Source: Ascidia mentula
Taxonomy: Eukaryota; Chordata; Ascidiacea; Phlebobranchia; Ascidiidae
Assembly (NCBI GenBank): GCA_947561715.1
Contig: OX387197.1
Location: 2,609,001 to 2,673,000, forward strand
Length of the DNA: 64,000 bases
Direction of reading: 5' to 3'
A program made the translations under genes and the position numbers. Each line of letters begins with the position of its first letter. The first letter of the stretch is position 1. The notes below the pieces were generated by a model that saw only the letters and a list, made by a program, of their open reading frames with translations, ran no database searches and was not told the origin of the DNA. This document shows, piece by piece, positions 54,279 to 63,990 of this stretch.

Positions 54279-54568
54279 TTACTTGACATATACGTAGTCG
54301 AGTTCACGGTCTCCCCTTCCGTTGCGACAGCTTTTGGAGGATCCGTACTTCTTGTACGTCAATAAAGCGTATTTGGCTCCAGCGCACCAACCACCATTCT
54401 GCACAGCAATGATCTTGTAGTTCCGGGCGAAGGCGGCATCAACGCACTTCTTGACTGCGTCTTTTCTGGTGTTGTATGGGTCGGTACCCAAAACCTTCTC
54501 CAACCTCTCCAGTGTGGGAAGAACCCGGGTCGAAGTGTCCTTCCAGCATCCGTGGTGACGTAGTCTCA
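54279..54568 (-). CDS. Terminal exon of a secreted lectin-like (Cys-rich, NGGWC motif) protein
   Basis: The minus-strand exon has an acceptor CATTGGCAG and ends YVYVK-TAA. It encodes a single Cys-rich domain: HHGCWKDTSTR...LPTLE, DAVKKCVDAA, YKIIAVQNGGWC, LTYKKYGSSKSC. This pattern recurs in marine invertebrate secreted and WSC/PAN-like carbohydrate-binding proteins; exact function is not known to me. Upstream exons and a signal peptide were not found; the sequence before it is occupied by a plus-strand copy of the same domain. Confidence 0.6.
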
Positions 54569-54813
54569 CTGCCAATGTCGTTACGTCACGATTTTATTTC
54601 CTCGCAATATTCGTAGGTCAGGCAAACAAAACGACTCGTATTTGTGAATATCAAATGTGTAAGGTTTCCATGTTGAACAACCGTGTTCGCAAATTCCAAG
54701 CAAACGTTCGCACGAAGCCAATGCATTTACTACATATGTTCAGGATATTGACTATTGCATTGCATTTATTCGTTGCTCTGTGAACAACTACATCTACCCG
54801 TTCCTCTTTCAAG

Positions 54814-55338
54814 TTACCTACAACAATTTGGGGTGTTGGATGGACAACTATGACCACGCTATCACCATACACGAAGGGAAACACAGCATTTTGGATGGAA
54901 GTTATTCATCCAGGGACAACCCTATCGCTAAATGTGCAAAAGTAGCTTACGAATCTGGCTACGAAGTATTCGCAGTGCAGGTAAAATTCAACATGGCTTT
55001 TCTTGTTTGACGAAATTGTTAACCTTGAGGAACTCGAAGGTCTAAACATCTGTATTTTTTAATTTGAAATTTTCGAGGCAGTGTCCAAGAATCGCCTTTA
55101 GCGCGACCACGCGTTTCGGCCTGCATTTAGGTTGTTTTCCCATAATTTTGAACCTGTGGGAATGCAGATTCCTGTGTTACGAATTAGGCACATTTTCATC
55201 TACAAGGTCTGCCATGCCGATTGTTATCTATGTTTTTGTATTTGTATTTCCAATTTTTTTGTTTTCGGATGTACTTTAATTTACTTATTTATATTTGCGA
55301 GAATGGCGGCCAATGCGCCGGAAACTCTTCTGCGAGAA
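54814..55338 (+). pseudogene. Partial lectin-like domain, plus-strand copy
   Basis: Exons 54814-54980 and 55302-55338 encode LGCWMDNYDHA, IAKCAKVAYESGYEVFAVQ and NGGQCAGNSSAR, the same domain as the minus-strand exon at 54279. The conserved Trp of NGGWC is Gln here. The second half (TYxKYG...C) was not found downstream; instead a kelch exon fragment and dispersed repeats follow. No start codon or signal peptide is evident. It may be a decayed gene or one exon pair of a gene with undetected parts. Confidence 0.45.
55140..55290 (+). repeat. Dispersed repeat, copy A (3' part)
   Basis: TCTGCCATGCCGATTGTT and TTTTCGGATGTACTTTAATT match the second half of the repeat at 63826-63990. Confidence 0.6.
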
Positions 55339-55425
55339 GTGAGTGCTGGATGAAGAATGCTGATTTGTGTGAAGCTCGTAAGAATGCTGCATCTGCTGTT
55401 GTCGGAGGTCAGTTGCTATGATTGT
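55339..55425 (+). pseudogene. Duplicated fragment of a kelch exon
   Basis: About 87 bases match 61292-61378, the end of the second kelch exon plus its donor and intron start. Both share TGCTGATTTGTGTGA, GCTGCATCTGCTGTTGTCGG and GTTGCTATGATTGTACAAAA. It is a segmental copy of part of the kinase-kelch gene. Confidence 0.8.
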
Positions 55426-55570
55426 ACAAAATTTTGTTGTCCAAACAGGTGTAGGCGAAAAATACAATCTTTTTTTTTTGTGGAACAGGTGTTGGCAGAT
55501 TTTCATTAGCATTCCTCTGCAAGCTCAGCCGTGCCGATTGTTATCTATGTTTTTTGGGGGGTGTTTTGCA
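55426..55570 (+). repeat. Dispersed repeat, copy B (5' part)
   Basis: TTGTTGTCCAAACAGGTGTA, GGCGAAAAATACAAT, TGTGGAACAGGTGTTGGCAG and ATTCCTCTGCAAGCTC all recur at 63826-63920. Confidence 0.75.
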
Positions 55571-56201: not shown

Positions 56202-59200
56202 ATGATGGCGTTTGCTTCATCTGTTGTTGACCCACAAGGATTAGATGTTGTAAGTATAACACAGCTGTACGCATTGAATGTTGTATAATGAATTGTTATA
56301 TTTTTGGCTAAAAAAGTATTGCATTATTTAGTTTTAAAAGTGTTTTTTTTCTAGCTGAGAGAGTTCAAAGCTGAAAATATCTTTTGTGACATCAAGCAAG
56401 GTGTAATCGGTCAAGGTAGCTACGGTCGAGTTTTCCTTGGAAAACATGAAAAAGTTGGGTTTCTTGCTGTCAAGTGCTTGAAAGTCACTGGTGGAGAACA
56501 TGAACAACACCTGTTTGAAAAAACGTAAGATTAGGGTTATTGACGAATATTTGTAGCAGTTAGATCAGCATCTTATTTATACATTTTGTAGATTCAGACG
56601 TGAATACCAAAATTTACTGCAATCTCGCCATGACAACATATCAACTGTTCATGGATACACCAAGTGGCCAGGAGCAATTGGGATTGTAATGCAATTCTAT
56701 GGAGGTGGAAGTTTAAGAATTCTAATCCTGGATCAAGATATTGAACTTGGACTTGGTTTAATTCTTCGCATGGCAACTGAAATAGCATCAGGAGTTGCCT
56801 ACATTCACAACTGTGGAATCAACAAGCGATTGGTTCACTTAGATTTGAAGCCAGAAAATATTTTCATGACACTTGACTTGCACTGCGTAATTGGTGACTT
56901 TGGATGTGCCCGGTTGGTCCAACTGACGTCAGGATCAACAACTCAACTGCCAGGTCAATCAAAATCACAGGGATTGACACTTTACTATGCAGCACCAGAA
57001 AGGCTTCTTCAATATGCAAGACCTAAAAAAGAACAGGATGCTTACAGCTGTGGTATCATCTATTTTCAGATGCTAAGTCGTGAACAACCATACCAGTCAG
57101 AACAAGAGTTCTGGCGCAAGCTTGAGAGGAGTCTACGACCGGACTGTGAAGCAATACAAAGCCTAAGAGAGCAAAGCAATGCAAACAACAGAGAAATAGT
57201 TGATTTGATGGAAAGAGTGATGATCAGATGTTGGGATCAAGATCCAAATCAACGACCAGACATGGTCCACATTCGGGATGAATTTCAACAACTTCTTTCC
57301 AAACAAGATCCCAGAGTAATTTTGCTGCAGGTAGCAAATGCTGCAAGGAACATGCATATTGTGGACCCAACAGCAACCCACAATCCAACTGTTCCACTCA
57401 GCCAGTTTTCAACACAGACATGGAAATTTCATGGTAGCATTTTGTTTGTTAGTTTCATGATTTCAAGTTTGTTTTGTATCGTACTTCCACAATAGTGTTT
57501 ATGTACAATGGAACTTATATATTGATATGCATGCTTTATATCTTTTGTTTGTGTAATAGTTGAGGGTTTTTGTTTGTAGATGTTGGACCTGAAATTAAAC
57601 AACCAGTTGAGGTCAACATCCAACAAATTGAAGATCAATCACCACAAATACAAGGTAAGTAATTTGTGTTAAACAGTTTTGGTTGAATGCTAGGATTTGT
57701 TGGTTGTGTTAGATCCAGGTGGTTTAAGTTTGTGTCAGTCAGAGGCTGTAATCCTTTTTCGTTGCAAGCTGCCAGCCCGGACGCATCAAAATTTCGCTGA
57801 GATCTGCAGGATTTAAAGAGAATGCATTTTAATTTCAAACAGTATTTGAATCAAGCTGATTTTTGAAAAGATAATCAGTGTTCTTGCCTTGCCAGCATTT
57901 GTTACACGTACCCTGTCAAGGTCGTTGTGTCAGAAATTGAAATAAAGCCTATATCACCTATGCTGGAATTGCAAATTTTGCGGCTTTGCTACTTACCAAA
58001 ACAAATTTGATGTAAACTACACTGTTTTCAGATGAAGCAATTGCTGATGTTGCCCAGATGCAAATACACCAGACACAGCCCAGACCATCACATAATAGAG
58101 GTTTTGTAACCATACATGACATATTCTGCCAACTAATGCTAAAACTAAAGTCCAACTGCTTCTTATGGTGTTATGAATTAGAATATAATATAATACTATT
58201 AACTACCATATATTAATACTTGTATGTTTAAATTAATAATGCTTTAATACAATGCATTTAACTGGATATATTTGTCTCCAGGTGCAAACAGAAGACCTGC
58301 AAGTCATGCTACACCCCAAATCCCACCCAGTGAAGAAAACCTTCCAGTGGATGATGACTTGCCCAACCCATCATCTGGAAGAACTGCAATAGGTGTTGGA
58401 CTTGAAAGTAATCAACCACTACATGACAACATTCATCGAAGTGAAAGAGAACAGGAATCACCACAAGTACAAGGCAAGTGATTGGGTACAGACTTGTGTT
58501 TTTTCTAGACCCCTCAGCTTATTTCAGTCTCAGCACAACTACATACCTACTCATAGAAAATGCAAAATCAAAATGAGAATATTCCAACAGATTCAATTTA
58601 TTTAATGCCTCAAAATAAGATTGTGATGGAAGGTTGAAACCATTGTTGTTGACTGCGTAGTAGTTTTATTTTATGATTAACATGAGTTACATGACATAAT
58701 TATACATGGCAAGGGAGTCTCTTTGTTCAATATTTTGGACCACCTCCACATCAACACTGCTTATTAAACCCTTTTATCGGTTTAATCATGCAGTCTTATA
58801 ACTGAAGAAAAACAAAATAGTGTTGCTTTTTGCTATAATCTGCGTTAAAATGGGTGAAGCAAAATACACGCCAAATAACGAATAGCGTTCTCACAAACTT
58901 ACTCGAAACCTTCACAGACTTAATTGCATCCGCCAACTACGAATTGAGATAAATTTTTTATTCAGTTGTAATTTAAAACCTTTGAATGCTGTTGTCATTT
59001 ACTAGAAGGTTTCAACATTAAATTAAAGGGTTTAAAAATGTCATTTAGAAATCAGGATTAAATGTCTATTTACAAAATTTAAATACAGCAAATAGAAGAT
59101 CTACAAGTCATGCTACACCTGAAGTCCCACCCAGTGGAAGAAACCATCCAATACGTGAATTTTTCTTCACCTCAAAAGGGAGAAGTAAAAAGGGTAATTT

Positions 59201-62200
59201 GCATTTTTTAATTGTGTGGCATTGTAAACATTGAGCATTGCAGCATGATAGAATCAATACCAACATGTGAAGTAATTTACTACAAAATGTTAGTTTGGTG
59301 TTTGTGTAAGAGAGCCCCATATCCTTTTTTGCAGCTACTTTGCAAAGTTTTATGAAATGATTGTCTGAAGTACATTTCCTAAATACACTACAGAAAGCAT
59401 GATTGGACTTATATTCACCTAATTATAGTGATTTAGTCTTGATCTTTGCTACAAGCTATCGTGTACAGAAATGACCCCAATATCACATGACATCAGCTGT
59501 CTAAATCAATACAGCAAACATAAAATGATCGCAGGCTGATTGGTTGATATGAATTGATTTAAATATCTGATTACAAGCTATATCGAGCTAATTTCTTAAC
59601 ATGTTAGCTTGCTTGCAAAGACCACAAAAGTTTCAAACAGCTTTTACGAACTGAAATTTCTGTAAATTATGTACCTATGAATTTCTTTTTCACACCAGAG
59701 AAACTGAGACCTGTTACCAACCCTCTGTCACCACCTAGTGGCAGAAACCTGAGAGTAGATTATTCCACACCCCTCTCATCACATCAACAACCAGGTAAAA
59801 TACAACAGGTGTTAACAAAGTATTTCTTTGTGAAAAAAAAAATCGAATAGAAACTGGTACCCAGAATGTCAAATTTAAAATATTCTTTTGTTTATGTCGA
59901 AGCAAATATCAAGTTTTTGTGATGCTTGGTATACAGGTGAAAGTTTTAGAACTGCAGAAGGTTCAAGTGATGTCACAAAGCCCAAACTTCTGTTTGGTAA
60001 GAATATTTAAAATGGTTTGTAGTTTATCAAACTACTTGCATTTGTAAACATTCAACACAGAAGTATGAAGTTCTACTTCTCCCTGTTTGGTATTTCTGTA
60101 TTGCATCAAGGTTGATGGATAAATTTCATGATTAATTATGTTTGTTATCTACTATATTTTAACACTTGTTGATATGCAGTGATGGTTCATTTATTTATAA
60201 CCACATTAACACACATTTTGTGCTTACTATGTGTACTTTTGATGAGAAAGAACTGTGTTTCCTCACATGTGGATATGTATGTGATAATGTATTGACAGGT
60301 GAAAGAAATAACTCCGAATCTCCAAGTGAAGCAAGATCTGAAAGCTCAACAAGTGATAGAAATCCTCCAACAAACCATTTCCTGCCCCGCTCATCACATC
60401 AAGAACCAAGCAGAAGAAACAGGGGTAACATATTAAAAATATGTTGTTTTCTGTTTTGGTGAAAAGGTAAATGTATCAATATTCTGTAACTTCCAGGCCA
60501 GCCTCTTAGCATATGATCTGCCTGTTCTTTTTTTGTTTTTGAAGGTTATTAGTATTTGTATTTAAAGCTTCTGTGGTCAGCAGTGCACTCAGTATTTCTA
60601 TTAAAGTGAGTTTGAGGAATTATTACTCTTATGGGGCCTTAACTAGGGCAGTCTTTTTTACTAACATTAAAATTCATACTATTTAAACTTGTTATAGATT
60701 CATCAGGATTTCTTGTTATTGGTGGTTGCAATTCAGATAGAGATTGTGTGAAATGGAATGTTACCACAAAACAACATCAACATTTACCGGTTAGTTGCAT
60801 TCGAGATTTTGCCATGCGAATTGGTTGTTACCGTCAGTTTCCTAGGGCATAGTCAACAAATAGTCAAACTCTGCATTTTTTTTGTAATGTATAAAACATT
60901 GAACGCAAGTATGGCAAATCACAAATAGAAAAACAACAAATAGAAGCATGAGACATCATCGTACTCTGCACTACAACCATAACATTGGGCTGTGCAGTCT
61001 TAGTCTGTTTTCATGGTGTAGCTCAGGTGTTCAACCTCCCACTGTGAACCAATTAGTGATGCTGTTCCAAACTCACACTATCTCACACTCCATAGGCGAC
61101 TAGTTTTCATTTTTCCTGTATGACGTCATAATTTGTTTGTTATAGTACAACAGGTTAATAGATCCACAATTTTATTTGTAGAAACTGAAAACAGCAAGAA
61201 AATGCTCAACTTCAGCCAAAGTTGAAAACACAGTTTATGTACTGGGTGGAGACGGTCCAACAAAAAGTTGTGAGATGATGAATTTGGAGAGAAGTGATCG
61301 CTGGATGAAATTTGCTGATTTGTGTGAGGGTCGAGTGTTTGCTGCATCTGCTGTTGTCGGAGGTCGGTTGCTATGATTGTACAAAAGATTTTTAAATCAA
61401 AATTTAAATACCTTCAGAACACAGCAGTAAATATAACATATTATTAATAAGGTGGTACAATATAATTTGGCCATTACATGCCCCTCACAACCAGAAGAAT
61501 TAGGTTTGATTGGCAGAGGTTGTCATCAGGACTTCCTAAAGTTTTTTTTTGGTCAGCCACCCCATCTTTTGCAAACATGCCAGTTCATAACTGTCAGAGT
61601 TATATTTATTCAACAGAATAAAATCTGTGCACCTTATTAAGTGGGTGGTACTTTGTTATGCTACAGACATATTTGTTAATGACAATAGCAAAAGTTGCAT
61701 AAGAACCAAGTTTTAATGTTACCCAATTTTTTGATTGACAATTCCATGTTACAGAGAAACTTTACCTTTCCGGGGGTGTTGGTGGAGATCGCAAACCATT
61801 TTCATCCTACCTGATTTATAACATAGAAGAAGGCAGATGGAGAATTGGTGCCAACATGTTACAACCAAGATATGCACATGGAATGTGTTCAATTGACAGT
61901 AAGAATATGTTTTAAATCTTTCAAAACTTATGAAGGCTTTCGCTTTTCTTGACAATGCAAGGCAACAATGTAAAATTCGCTTTAAACTTCAGACTCCCTA
62001 CAATACTCACTCACTTATTACCATGGACTCGCAAATCTGTATTTTTAGTGATGACGTCATATGCACGAGTTTTCATTTCGTTTCGTGTAAAATGAGCAAA
62101 AAATCTTGTTTTATTAAATTAAACTCTTGTTAAAAATATTTATTTGCGTGCTTACTGAGTTCGTGAATATTAACCTTAAATAAAACTGTATCTTGTTTGT

Positions 62201-63204
62201 ACGTTAAACGTAGTGCTTACTTCAATGATTGTTACGTAACATTACCACATAATCGTAATATGACGTCACAATAAATATTAACACAAACGTTTTGGAAATT
62301 TCTTCAGATGTTTTGTTTTCTGTGGGCGGACATGATGGCAGACCACTCTTACAATCATGTGAATTCCGCGATATTCGTGTTGGAACCTCCACAAGAATCG
62401 CTTCTCTCAATGAAGCAAGACGGGGTTTAGCATGTGAAGAAATTAAAGGGAAGATCTATGCAATTGGTTAGTTATCAGAAGCTACATATTAACTAAAACT
62501 AGTAGTTTTTTAAACTGTTTTTTGTTTTCTGGATTCCATCCATTAATGTAAGGTAACTTTACTTAATTCACACGTGATGTAATTAAAGTTACATGAACAA
62601 ACATTTCACTTAAATACAAAACAGAAGCCAAGAAATTCCTGGACAAAGTTTTACTTTAAATCTGACAGGAGGTTATGATGGTCGTGGCTACCTGCGAACA
62701 GTTGAAGAATACGAACCTAGAGTCAACAAATGGAAATATGTTACTCCTCTCCTACAACCTCGTTGGCTTCACTCAGCTTGTGTTATTGATGGGATGATTT
62801 ATGTTGTGGGGGGAAGGTGAGGTTTACGTTTGAATGTTTGTACTAGTGATTGTGACGTCACTATAGGGTTTGTTACTCATAATTGAAGGCGTTTATTGAC
62901 TGGGATAATATATGTAAATGTGTGATTTGCGCACAACCGACTGACCTGGCTAATATTATTAAATAAAAGTAATTTTTCCATCGCAATATCAGTAATAAAA
63001 ATATAAAGGATATGTGTGTTGTTGTCAGTTAAGTGAGTAGGAATTTGCTGCTGTTTAAAAATACTCACATTAATTTTGGTTTTGTTTAGGATGTATGGCG
63101 ATCCCCTGGCATCAGTTGAAGTTTACGATCCAACCTCAGATGTCTGGACACATGCTTTTGATCTTGACAAACCAGTTTGGGGTGCAACTGTTGTTGCTGT
63201 TTGA
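56202..63204 (+). CDS. Protein kinase (TKL/RIPK-like) fused to a six-blade kelch propeller
   Basis: Sixteen exons keep phase to a TGA: 56202-56249, 56355-56524, 56592-57433, 57580-57654, 58032-58100, 58282-58473, 59089-59193, 59699-59794, 59937-59996, 60299-60424, 60698-60789, 61182-61362, 61755-61898, 62308-62466, 62669-62816, 63090-63204; 873 residues. Kinase: Gly-loop GQGSYGRVF (35-43), Lys56 (LAVKCL), His155-Leu-Asp157 loop (HLDLKPENIF), Asp175 (GDFGCAR), then YYAAPE. All catalytic residues are present, so activity is expected; the HRD Arg is Leu. Residues about 354-594 are a Ser/Pro/Gln-rich linker from seven small exons. Residues about 595-873 carry six glycine-doublet kelch blades (VIGG, VLGG, LSGG, SVGG, AIGG, VVGG), a substrate-binding propeller. 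Likely a cytosolic signalling protein; pathway unknown. One intron starts with GC. Confidence 0.88.
61480..61580 (-). mobile_element. Decayed foldback-like fragment (possible)
   Basis: CCAGAAGAATTAGG and, on the minus strand, TCCTGATGACAACCTCTGCC resemble the CCAGAAGAG end and CCTGATGAAGG core of the elements at 17979 and 49374. Inverted arms are not clear. Confidence 0.3.
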
Positions 63205-63825
63205 GATGTGTTTGTTTGTTCTGAAATTGAACATGTGGGTTGTAATGTAGGTCATGTGGTCGTGGGTTTTTTTCACAATATGTTGTTGCAACTTTTTTCA
63301 CTTTTTTGTACAAACGTGCAACACTTTCACTAAAATATGTGTAGAGTGAGTGGGATTATTTGCTGTTGAAAATTTGATTAATTTACTTGCCTTGGAACGG
63401 AATTAATGTAATTGTTCCGTTGTGACAACTTGCTACAAAATTAACCCGCGATCTAATTTTCGTTGGCCGCCAATTGTAATCTGGACAGCGACACAGAAGT
63501 TTGTGAATATATTTTTGTTCTGTATGTAAACGCATTGTTTTTTATTACAAAGGACTATTTTAAAGCGGTTGATGTTTTATTCAGCAAGTTGTGCGGTATA
63601 GGAAGAGCGAGCAACACAAAACACACGTTTAATAAAGCGGATACCACGGCATAAGAAAAAAGCAATGCACGCTTCGATGCACAAACGAACAGTGCGGTCC
63701 CCACGATTCACCATTAAACCCATTTTTTGGTTGTCCATCTTAACAAATCCGTATATATGTAAAATCAAGATTTTTTTGCAGTAACACTTGCCCGCTGGAT
63801 TAAATAACTCCTGTGATCCCCGTCA
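63205..63825 (+). other. 3' UTR and downstream sequence of kinase-kelch gene
   Basis: AATAAA at 63631-63636 is a candidate polyadenylation signal about 430 bases after the stop. No further exon is seen. Confidence 0.4.
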
Positions 63826-63990
63826 AAATATTGTTGTCCAAACAGGTGTAGGCGAAAAATACAATTTTTTTTGTGGAACAGGTGTTGGCAGAATTTCAGT
63901 AACATTCCTCTGCAAGCTCTGCCATTCCGATTGTTCTCTGTGTTTATGTTTCACATTTTTTCCGTTTTCGGATATACTTTAATTCACTTG
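63826..63990 (+). repeat. Dispersed repeat, copy C (longest)
   Basis: It contains, in order, the blocks found separately at 55426-55570 and 55140-55290, including GGTGTAGGCGAAAAATACAA and TTTCGGATATACTTTAATTC. It may continue past the window. Confidence 0.75.

Follow-up and report, generated by a model that had tools for sequence, protein, structure and literature searches.

A RIPK-like kinase and a hypervariable kelch propeller in one predicted gene of a tandem family in Ascidia mentula

Six-blade kelch propellers are carried by the KLHL/KEAP1 proteins, which are BTB-BACK-kelch adaptors of cullin-3 ligases, and the RIPK family is a group of TKL kinases. A predicted gene of the ascidian Ascidia mentula has something of both. 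It lies at 56202-63204 on the + strand of a 64,000-nucleotide stretch of DNA (assembly GCA_947561715.1, contig OX387197.1, positions 2,609,001 to 2,673,000), which we call the window and whose first letter is position 1. With KLHL/KEAP1 it shares the six-blade propeller, the repeat motifs and the ligand-face positions, and a sister gene in the same genome is itself BTB-BACK-kelch; it differs in having a kinase instead of BTB and BACK, and in contact-type residues that are hypervariable between copies. With the RIPK family it shares a kinase with intact catalytic motifs whose nearest match among solved sequences is RIPK1; it differs in having no Pfam death domain, CARD, ankyrin or RHIM, in carrying a kelch propeller instead, and in its large tandem expansion.

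Three further systems are of interest. Kelch domains are reported in a few tyrosine kinases of Entamoeba histolytica (PMC2939887), so that kinase and kelch in one protein, the point of likeness, has a eukaryotic precedent; the differences are that the host is an amoeba, that the kinases are called tyrosine kinases, and that the part of that paper drawn on here describes no hypervariable array. In the nematode F-box and MATH-BTB adaptors, the relevant part of the source places positive selection in the substrate-binding and not the cullin-binding domain, a pattern which that source interprets as a means of detecting foreign proteins and degrading them (PMC4334554). Rapid birth and death and selection on the binding domain are what they have in common with the present family, whose binding domain is kelch, not MATH or an F-box-linked domain, and whose output is a kinase plus, likely, a ligase. 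The HNWD proteins of Podospora, which are of the STAND type, are described as owing their specificity to a polymorphic, recombining WD-repeat domain (PMC2873952). Recombining, variable propeller repeats are thus found in both cases, as fungal WD repeats with a STAND NTPase there and as animal kelch with a kinase here. Among the open-licence papers listed by our searches, none presents a tunicate kinase-kelch or hypervariable kelch family in its title or summary.

We think it fairly probable that the family described here is a diversifying repertoire of recognition kinases, with a variable propeller face, a kinase output and a sister arm of cullin-3 ligases. The gene models combine splice consensus with similarity and are known here from DNA alone. 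Rebuilding the exons gives 16 phase-compatible exons that encode 873 amino acids and a stop (Table 1), with AG at all acceptors and GT at all donors except for one GC after 58473. In the 873-residue product, Pfam finds Pkinase at residues 32-300 (E = 6e-41) and Kelch_1 with 155.5 bits (E = 2e-46), the domain check that the original prediction had called for. Together with the paralogs, this bears out its claim that a RIPK-like kinase and a six-blade kelch propeller are joined in one gene of 16 in-frame exons. Six kelch repeats are identified by Pfam and PDB matches, and six GG doublets were located. The propeller has its best PDB sequence matches to designed SAKe propellers, followed by KLHL20, KLHL17 and KEAP1. 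The kinase domain matches RIPK1 best (2.2e-26), then RIPK4 and B-Raf, and judged by the best PDB match only, it would be placed closest to the RIPK (TKL) family. Its Gly loop, Lys, alphaC Glu, HLD, DFG and APE are all present. Neither BTB nor BACK is among the 11 Pfam families listed for the product, and RHIM, death domain, CARD and ankyrin are absent from Pfam matches to the whole protein at E up to 0.001 and to the linker at E up to 5. The linker between the two parts is made of the seven exons 4-10 (57580-60424), each of which is open, has a length divisible by three and is phase 1-1; the linker has no Pfam family match whatever at E up to 5.

A kinase search of the same genome finds at least 42 copies that match most of exon 3 at 55% identity or more, counting that of the window, and besides these two partial copies at 70% identity or more. 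These family counts are lower bounds, as only the best candidates were scored. The original prediction implied a one-off fusion, and that lone-fusion reading is rejected, since the gene is one of about 40 copies in the genome. Thirty of the 42 lie on both strands of a 0.9-Mb stretch at C1:1.92-2.80 Mb; others are at C1:3.0, 3.5, 6.0 and 7.0 Mb, on contig C52 (five) and on C67 and C71 (one apiece). A kelch match is found within 9 kb downstream on the same strand for 38 of the 44 kinase copies. The six that have none are at C1:2798864, C71:10978098, C1:7028447, C1:2195484 and C67:14502219, together with the partial copy at C1:2163398; for C1:2195484 there is a weak kelch match at C1:2201416, which is outside the kelch list used for the 9-kb check.

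The kinase and the propeller evolve in very different ways. Across 20 copies, 223 of 337 kinase columns are invariant, and Lys, alphaC Glu, HLD or HMD, DFG and APE are kept in all 20 aligned kinases; from these motifs the kinase is predicted to be active. The ratio of mean nonsynonymous (dN) to mean synonymous (dS) divergence is 0.24 for the kinase (20 sequences) versus 1.18 for the propeller (17 sequences), with median pairwise dN and dS of 0.052 and 0.220 for the former and 0.115 and 0.099 for the latter.

The main question is where in the propeller the changes fall. We take KEAP1 Arg380 and Asn382 to be contact positions. Further KEAP1 contacts come from inhibitors bound in the Nrf2 site, to the extent that these are given in the part of the source drawn on (PMC6891428). 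To check the register, we used KEAP1 letters that agree with PDB 8ivg. The resulting strict face has 30 columns, namely residues 1, 3 and 6 after GG and residues 1 and 2 after Arg in each of the six blades, where the last blade has Val in place of Arg as the anchor. At these 30 columns, the ratio of nonsynonymous to synonymous proportions of differences (pN/pS) is 3.11, versus 0.73 at 231 framework columns. When the column set is slid along the alignment, the value peaks at zero shift among 41 shifts, the mean face pN of 0.356 dropping to 0.20 and 0.22 when the set is off by a single residue in one or the other direction. Of 20000 randomly drawn column sets, not one attains the face value. A broader face of 48 of the 278 columns holds 18 of the 20 most variable ones. 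Face codon positions 1 and 2 differ between kinase-kelch copies by 0.39 and 0.42 and framework codon positions by 0.04-0.06, while intron 14, in those copies where it is short (10 of 18), has a median distance of 0.065. In the 28 copies used for the comparison of families below, all of them in register, 26 distinct five-residue face combinations are seen.

Codon models give the same picture. For the propeller (16 sequences), M2a is preferred over M1a by twice the log-likelihood difference (2dlnL) of 333, and 16% of sites are assigned omega 7.3; 29 sites have a posterior above 0.95, of which 17 are in the strict face, 22 in the broad face and 7 in neither. For the kinase (19 sequences) 2dlnL is 13.1, with 2% of sites and a single site above 0.95. 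Given its own tree, each of kelch exons 12-16 is significant (5 of 6). To judge by these counts and models, contact-type residues of the propeller change several-fold faster than neutral with the rest nearly fixed, and positive selection is concentrated on the predicted ligand face. The original prediction had proposed that the propeller may choose substrates, which fits with the variable contact residues and is sharpened by them.

The same propeller exons are found in a second array. BTB exons occur on C1 at 0.70-1.76 Mb, at 2.10 and 2.21-2.27 Mb, which is within or beside the kinase array, and elsewhere. One such gene that was read, L043, has BTB and BACK by Pfam, this being the only copy so verified, followed by the same six kelch exons with splice sites in the phases of the window gene. 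The original prediction that the kinase stands in for the ligase-recruiting part gains support from this BTB-BACK-kelch array on the same contig. At least 52 loci on C1 outside the kinase array, counting that of L043, match blades 4 or 5, and in nine more BTB-array copies these blades agree with the kinase-kelch ones both in their constant framework and in which positions vary. Over the 10 BTB-kelch copies, the distances are 0.37 and 0.36 at the first and second codon positions of the face, 0.03-0.04 in the framework and 0.055 in intron 14, and exons 14 and 15 are both significant in M1a/M2a. These genes would act through cullin-3.

The blades appear to have been passed between copies. In 15 kinase-kelch copies, distances of the two kinase exons correlate with r = 0.71; for pairs of kelch exons, r runs from -0.02 (exons 14 and 15) to 0.53 (exons 11 and 12), and this unevenness makes the blades look mosaic. 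Between families, the median distance is 0.077 for exon 14 (0.090 and 0.063 within) and 0.089 for exon 15 (0.090 and 0.089 within). For the intron that separates these two exons, the distance over its final 60 bases is 0.24-0.26 between families, compared with 0.05-0.10 among kinase-kelch and 0.017 among BTB-kelch copies. In blades 4 and 5 the families resemble each other as closely as copies of one family do, though the intron separating the blades is dissimilar, and the blades hence look exchanged. Judged by exon 14, 8 of 28 copies have their nearest relative across the family boundary, and judged by exon 15, 13 of 28, where full mixing would give 13.3. The median dS of L043 to kinase-kelch copies is 0.20-0.56 for exons 11, 12, 13 and 16, and 0.03 for exons 14 and 15. 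The simplest account would be exon-bounded gene conversion between copies and between families.

Several points weigh against reading these patterns as a selected repertoire. The evidence is the sequence of one genome. The face columns were fixed after the alignment had been seen, which means that the pN/pS comparison is not blind, although they derive from KEAP1 positions and not from the observed variation. The codon model was purpose-written and run with fixed FastTree trees and a short optimisation. Kelch exon 11 by itself is non-significant (p 0.15), and on the kinase side exon 2 is non-significant and exon 3 is weakly significant (1% of sites, p 0.006). Kinase-kelch intron 14 distances range over 0.015-0.317. 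The copies have evidently recombined, and tests that depend on trees can be inflated by this, an effect that pairwise counts and per-exon trees reduce but do not abolish. One may then ask if the hypervariability is an artefact of misalignment, recombination or pseudogene decay, as the mosaic exons and the frame shift in blade 4 (exon 14) of copy L035 might suggest. L035 is probably a decaying copy, or else an assembly error; it was included in the dN/dS and face pN/pS counts and dropped from the codon-position distances, codon models, exon correlations, between-family distances and face combinations. We give the artefact scarcely any credence: gap-free columns anchored on invariant motifs are still hypervariable, framework codon positions differ by just 3-6%, decay would not respect contact positions, and the pattern is repeated in the BTB-kelch copies. 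Template-guided mutagenesis of the phage diversity-generating retroelement type had come to mind because the third base is fixed in some of the variable codons. It was set aside, as one of these codons has only A or G in its second position and TGG and GAG occur at further variable sites. Low synonymous divergence together with selection can explain the fixed third bases.

The last point on the opposing side concerns the linker, and whether there is one gene or two. Linker exons 6, 8 and 10 (3 of the 7, with matches that had gaps, stops or less than 75% of the exon left out beforehand) have pN/pS of 0.96, 0.58 and 0.90, which is little coding constraint and close to neutral. This is what might be seen if a kinase gene and a kelch gene had repeatedly been duplicated together and were falsely joined through a non-coding linker. 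The joined transcript does rest on predicted splicing, 6 of the 44 kinase copies have no kelch within 9 kb, and the number of linker-type exon matches per locus runs from 1 to 12 over 20 loci, the window included, although such variation is expected of duplicable phase 1-1 exons. Nevertheless, we see only a slim chance of two genes. Kinase exons are followed by kelch exons in order in 19 of 20 fetched paralog loci, using an exon finder that demanded the phases of the window gene and AG/GT sites, besides the 38 of 44 copies above. All six kelch exons are found in 16 of these; L038 has five before the fetched stretch ends, L027 has five with the last uncallable, and L039 has two, with the others not found in the remaining 2.2 kb. 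In L036 kelch exons are absent within its 10 kb. The open frame upstream of kelch exon 11 has no ATG, and in the BTB-BACK-kelch neighbour the corresponding exon is internal, following the BACK exons. Polyadenylation signals between the kinase and kelch parts are at background, with 8 found versus 7.3 expected. We agree with the original prediction, which had called a mis-join of adjacent genes unlikely, on the grounds of the open phase 1-1 linker, the missing exon 11 ATG and the conserved order. Of its overall interpretation, then, the architecture and the replacement of the ligase part stand, the one-off fusion does not, and the hypervariable face had not been mentioned.

Table 1. Exons of the predicted kinase-kelch gene, in positions of the window
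Feature	Positions	Strand	Basis and remarks
Exon 1, start codon and N-terminus	56202..56249	+	similar first exon (score >0.7) in 8/20 paralog loci
Exon 2, kinase N-lobe: Gly loop, beta3 Lys	56355..56524	+	exon rebuild, Pfam, motif alignment
Exon 3, remaining kinase: alphaC Glu, HLD, DFG, APE	56592..57433	+	exon rebuild, paralog search, Pfam, motif alignment
Exon 4, linker, phase 1-1	57580..57654	+	exon rebuild, linker-type search of paralogs
Exon 5, linker, phase 1-1	58032..58100	+	exon rebuild, linker-type search of paralogs
Exon 6, linker, phase 1-1, GC donor; most frequent linker module type among paralogs	58282..58473	+	exon rebuild, linker-type search, pN/pS
Exon 7, linker, phase 1-1	59089..59193	+	exon rebuild, linker-type search of paralogs
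Exon 8, linker, phase 1-1	59699..59794	+	exon rebuild, linker-type search, pN/pS
Exon 9, linker, phase 1-1	59937..59996	+	exon rebuild, linker-type search of paralogs
Exon 10, linker, phase 1-1	60299..60424	+	exon rebuild, linker-type search, pN/pS
Exon 11, kelch, first blade	60698..60789	+	Pfam; M2a alone non-significant, p 0.15
Exon 12, kelch, under positive selection	61182..61362	+	M2a p 1.1e-10
Exon 13, kelch, under positive selection	61755..61898	+	M2a p 4.3e-5
Exon 14, kelch blade 4, hypervariable; common to BTB-kelch family	62308..62466	+	M2a p 8.3e-19
Exon 15, kelch blade 5, hypervariable; common to BTB-kelch family	62669..62816	+	M2a p 6.9e-19
Exon 16, final kelch blade and stop codon	63090..63204	+	M2a p 8.4e-9

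Related kinases at ~40% identity form further tandem arrays at C2:0.8-3.3 Mb, C69:19.28-19.62 Mb and C70:6.77-6.93 Mb. Among the matches listed, none of these arrays has kelch beside it on the same strand, and near the C69 copies the only two kelch matches listed are just beyond, at C69:19.626 Mb on the opposite strand. At one C2 kinase locus, kelch was not seen by eye in the translated frames, no domain search having been made, and the same is true of one locus at C2:3.35-3.72 Mb, where BTB exons make up a large tandem array of their own. The partner domains of the C2, C69 and C70 kinases could be other recognition modules.

Around the window gene itself, a 98-base piece just upstream at 55334-55431 is 87% identical to 61289-61386, which is part of kelch exon 12, and is perhaps a relic of another copy, as would fit birth-and-death turnover. 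A 126-base repeat, 90% identical, is on both flanks at 55427-55552 and 63824-63945, possibly as a trace of tandem duplication. Weak WSC-domain-like frames, under the Pfam cut-off, are at 54279-54593 (-) and 54663-55010 (+). Elsewhere in the assembly, the COX1 gene of contig C79 contains 16 AGA or AGG codons, and reading these as glycine gives stretches such as IGGFGNW, GTGWTVYPP and GGGGDPILYQHLF, whose glycines we take to be conserved in COX1; the glycine reading is the ascidian mitochondrial code, which by itself places the genome among the tunicates.

As for function, two of the features by which a diversifying recognition repertoire would be known, a tandem multigene family and positive selection focused on the face, were both found, and the nematode and fungal parallels point to the same reading. 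The gene would be a member of a recently expanded tandem tunicate family of recognition kinases, probably cytosolic, in which the ligand face of the C-terminal propeller serves to bind a variable protein or peptide. Diversifying selection, aided by exchange of blade exons between copies, would keep altering the contact residues, and the conserved N-terminal RIPK-like kinase would be the common output. Binding of ligand may gather kinases, or may deliver a substrate to the kinase, and so start signalling; that the kinase is switched on by propeller binding is our inference. The sister BTB-BACK-kelch genes, drawing on the same blades, would pass a bound target to a cullin-3 ubiquitin ligase. A more specific proposal, which we put forward as tentative, is that one reshuffled pool of hypervariable kelch blades serves two intracellular heads, a RIPK-like kinase for alarm and a BTB-BACK cullin-3 adaptor for destruction, with exon-bounded gene conversion moving specificities between the arms.

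The ligands would be foreign or non-self proteins, and by analogy the repertoire most likely serves immunity. Ascidians are described, in the part of the literature drawn on here, as showing multi-allelic self-sterility and blood-cell allorecognition, and the specificity of HNWD is set by polymorphic, concertedly evolving WD-repeat propellers (PMC2873952, in the part used), so the propellers might instead read highly polymorphic self markers of gametes or blood cells and not pathogen proteins. We regard this as unlikely, though worth keeping in mind, as Pfam finds no extracellular-type domain in the product (signal-peptide and membrane prediction were not run) and there are dozens of copies, not one or few polymorphic loci. 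Somewhat less likely still is germ-line genome defence rather than general immunity, with targets encoded by transposons, viruses or parasites. That role would be expected to leave the same selection signature, and BTB-kelch partners could degrade such targets, but the analyses give no pointer to germ-line use.

Tunicates are the sister group of vertebrates and are not known to have the vertebrate antigen receptors. If the recognition-repertoire reading is true, the family would represent a novel type of recognition system in animals, a germline set of dozens of propellers linked to kinases in which changes cluster at contact residues, much as in antibodies, and the paired ligase array would couple sensing with destruction of similar targets. 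This reading lends itself to direct tests, for it is known which residues vary, the ligand face can be predicted and the kinase is a readout. The family would also amount to a natural library of kelch binders on a single near-constant framework.

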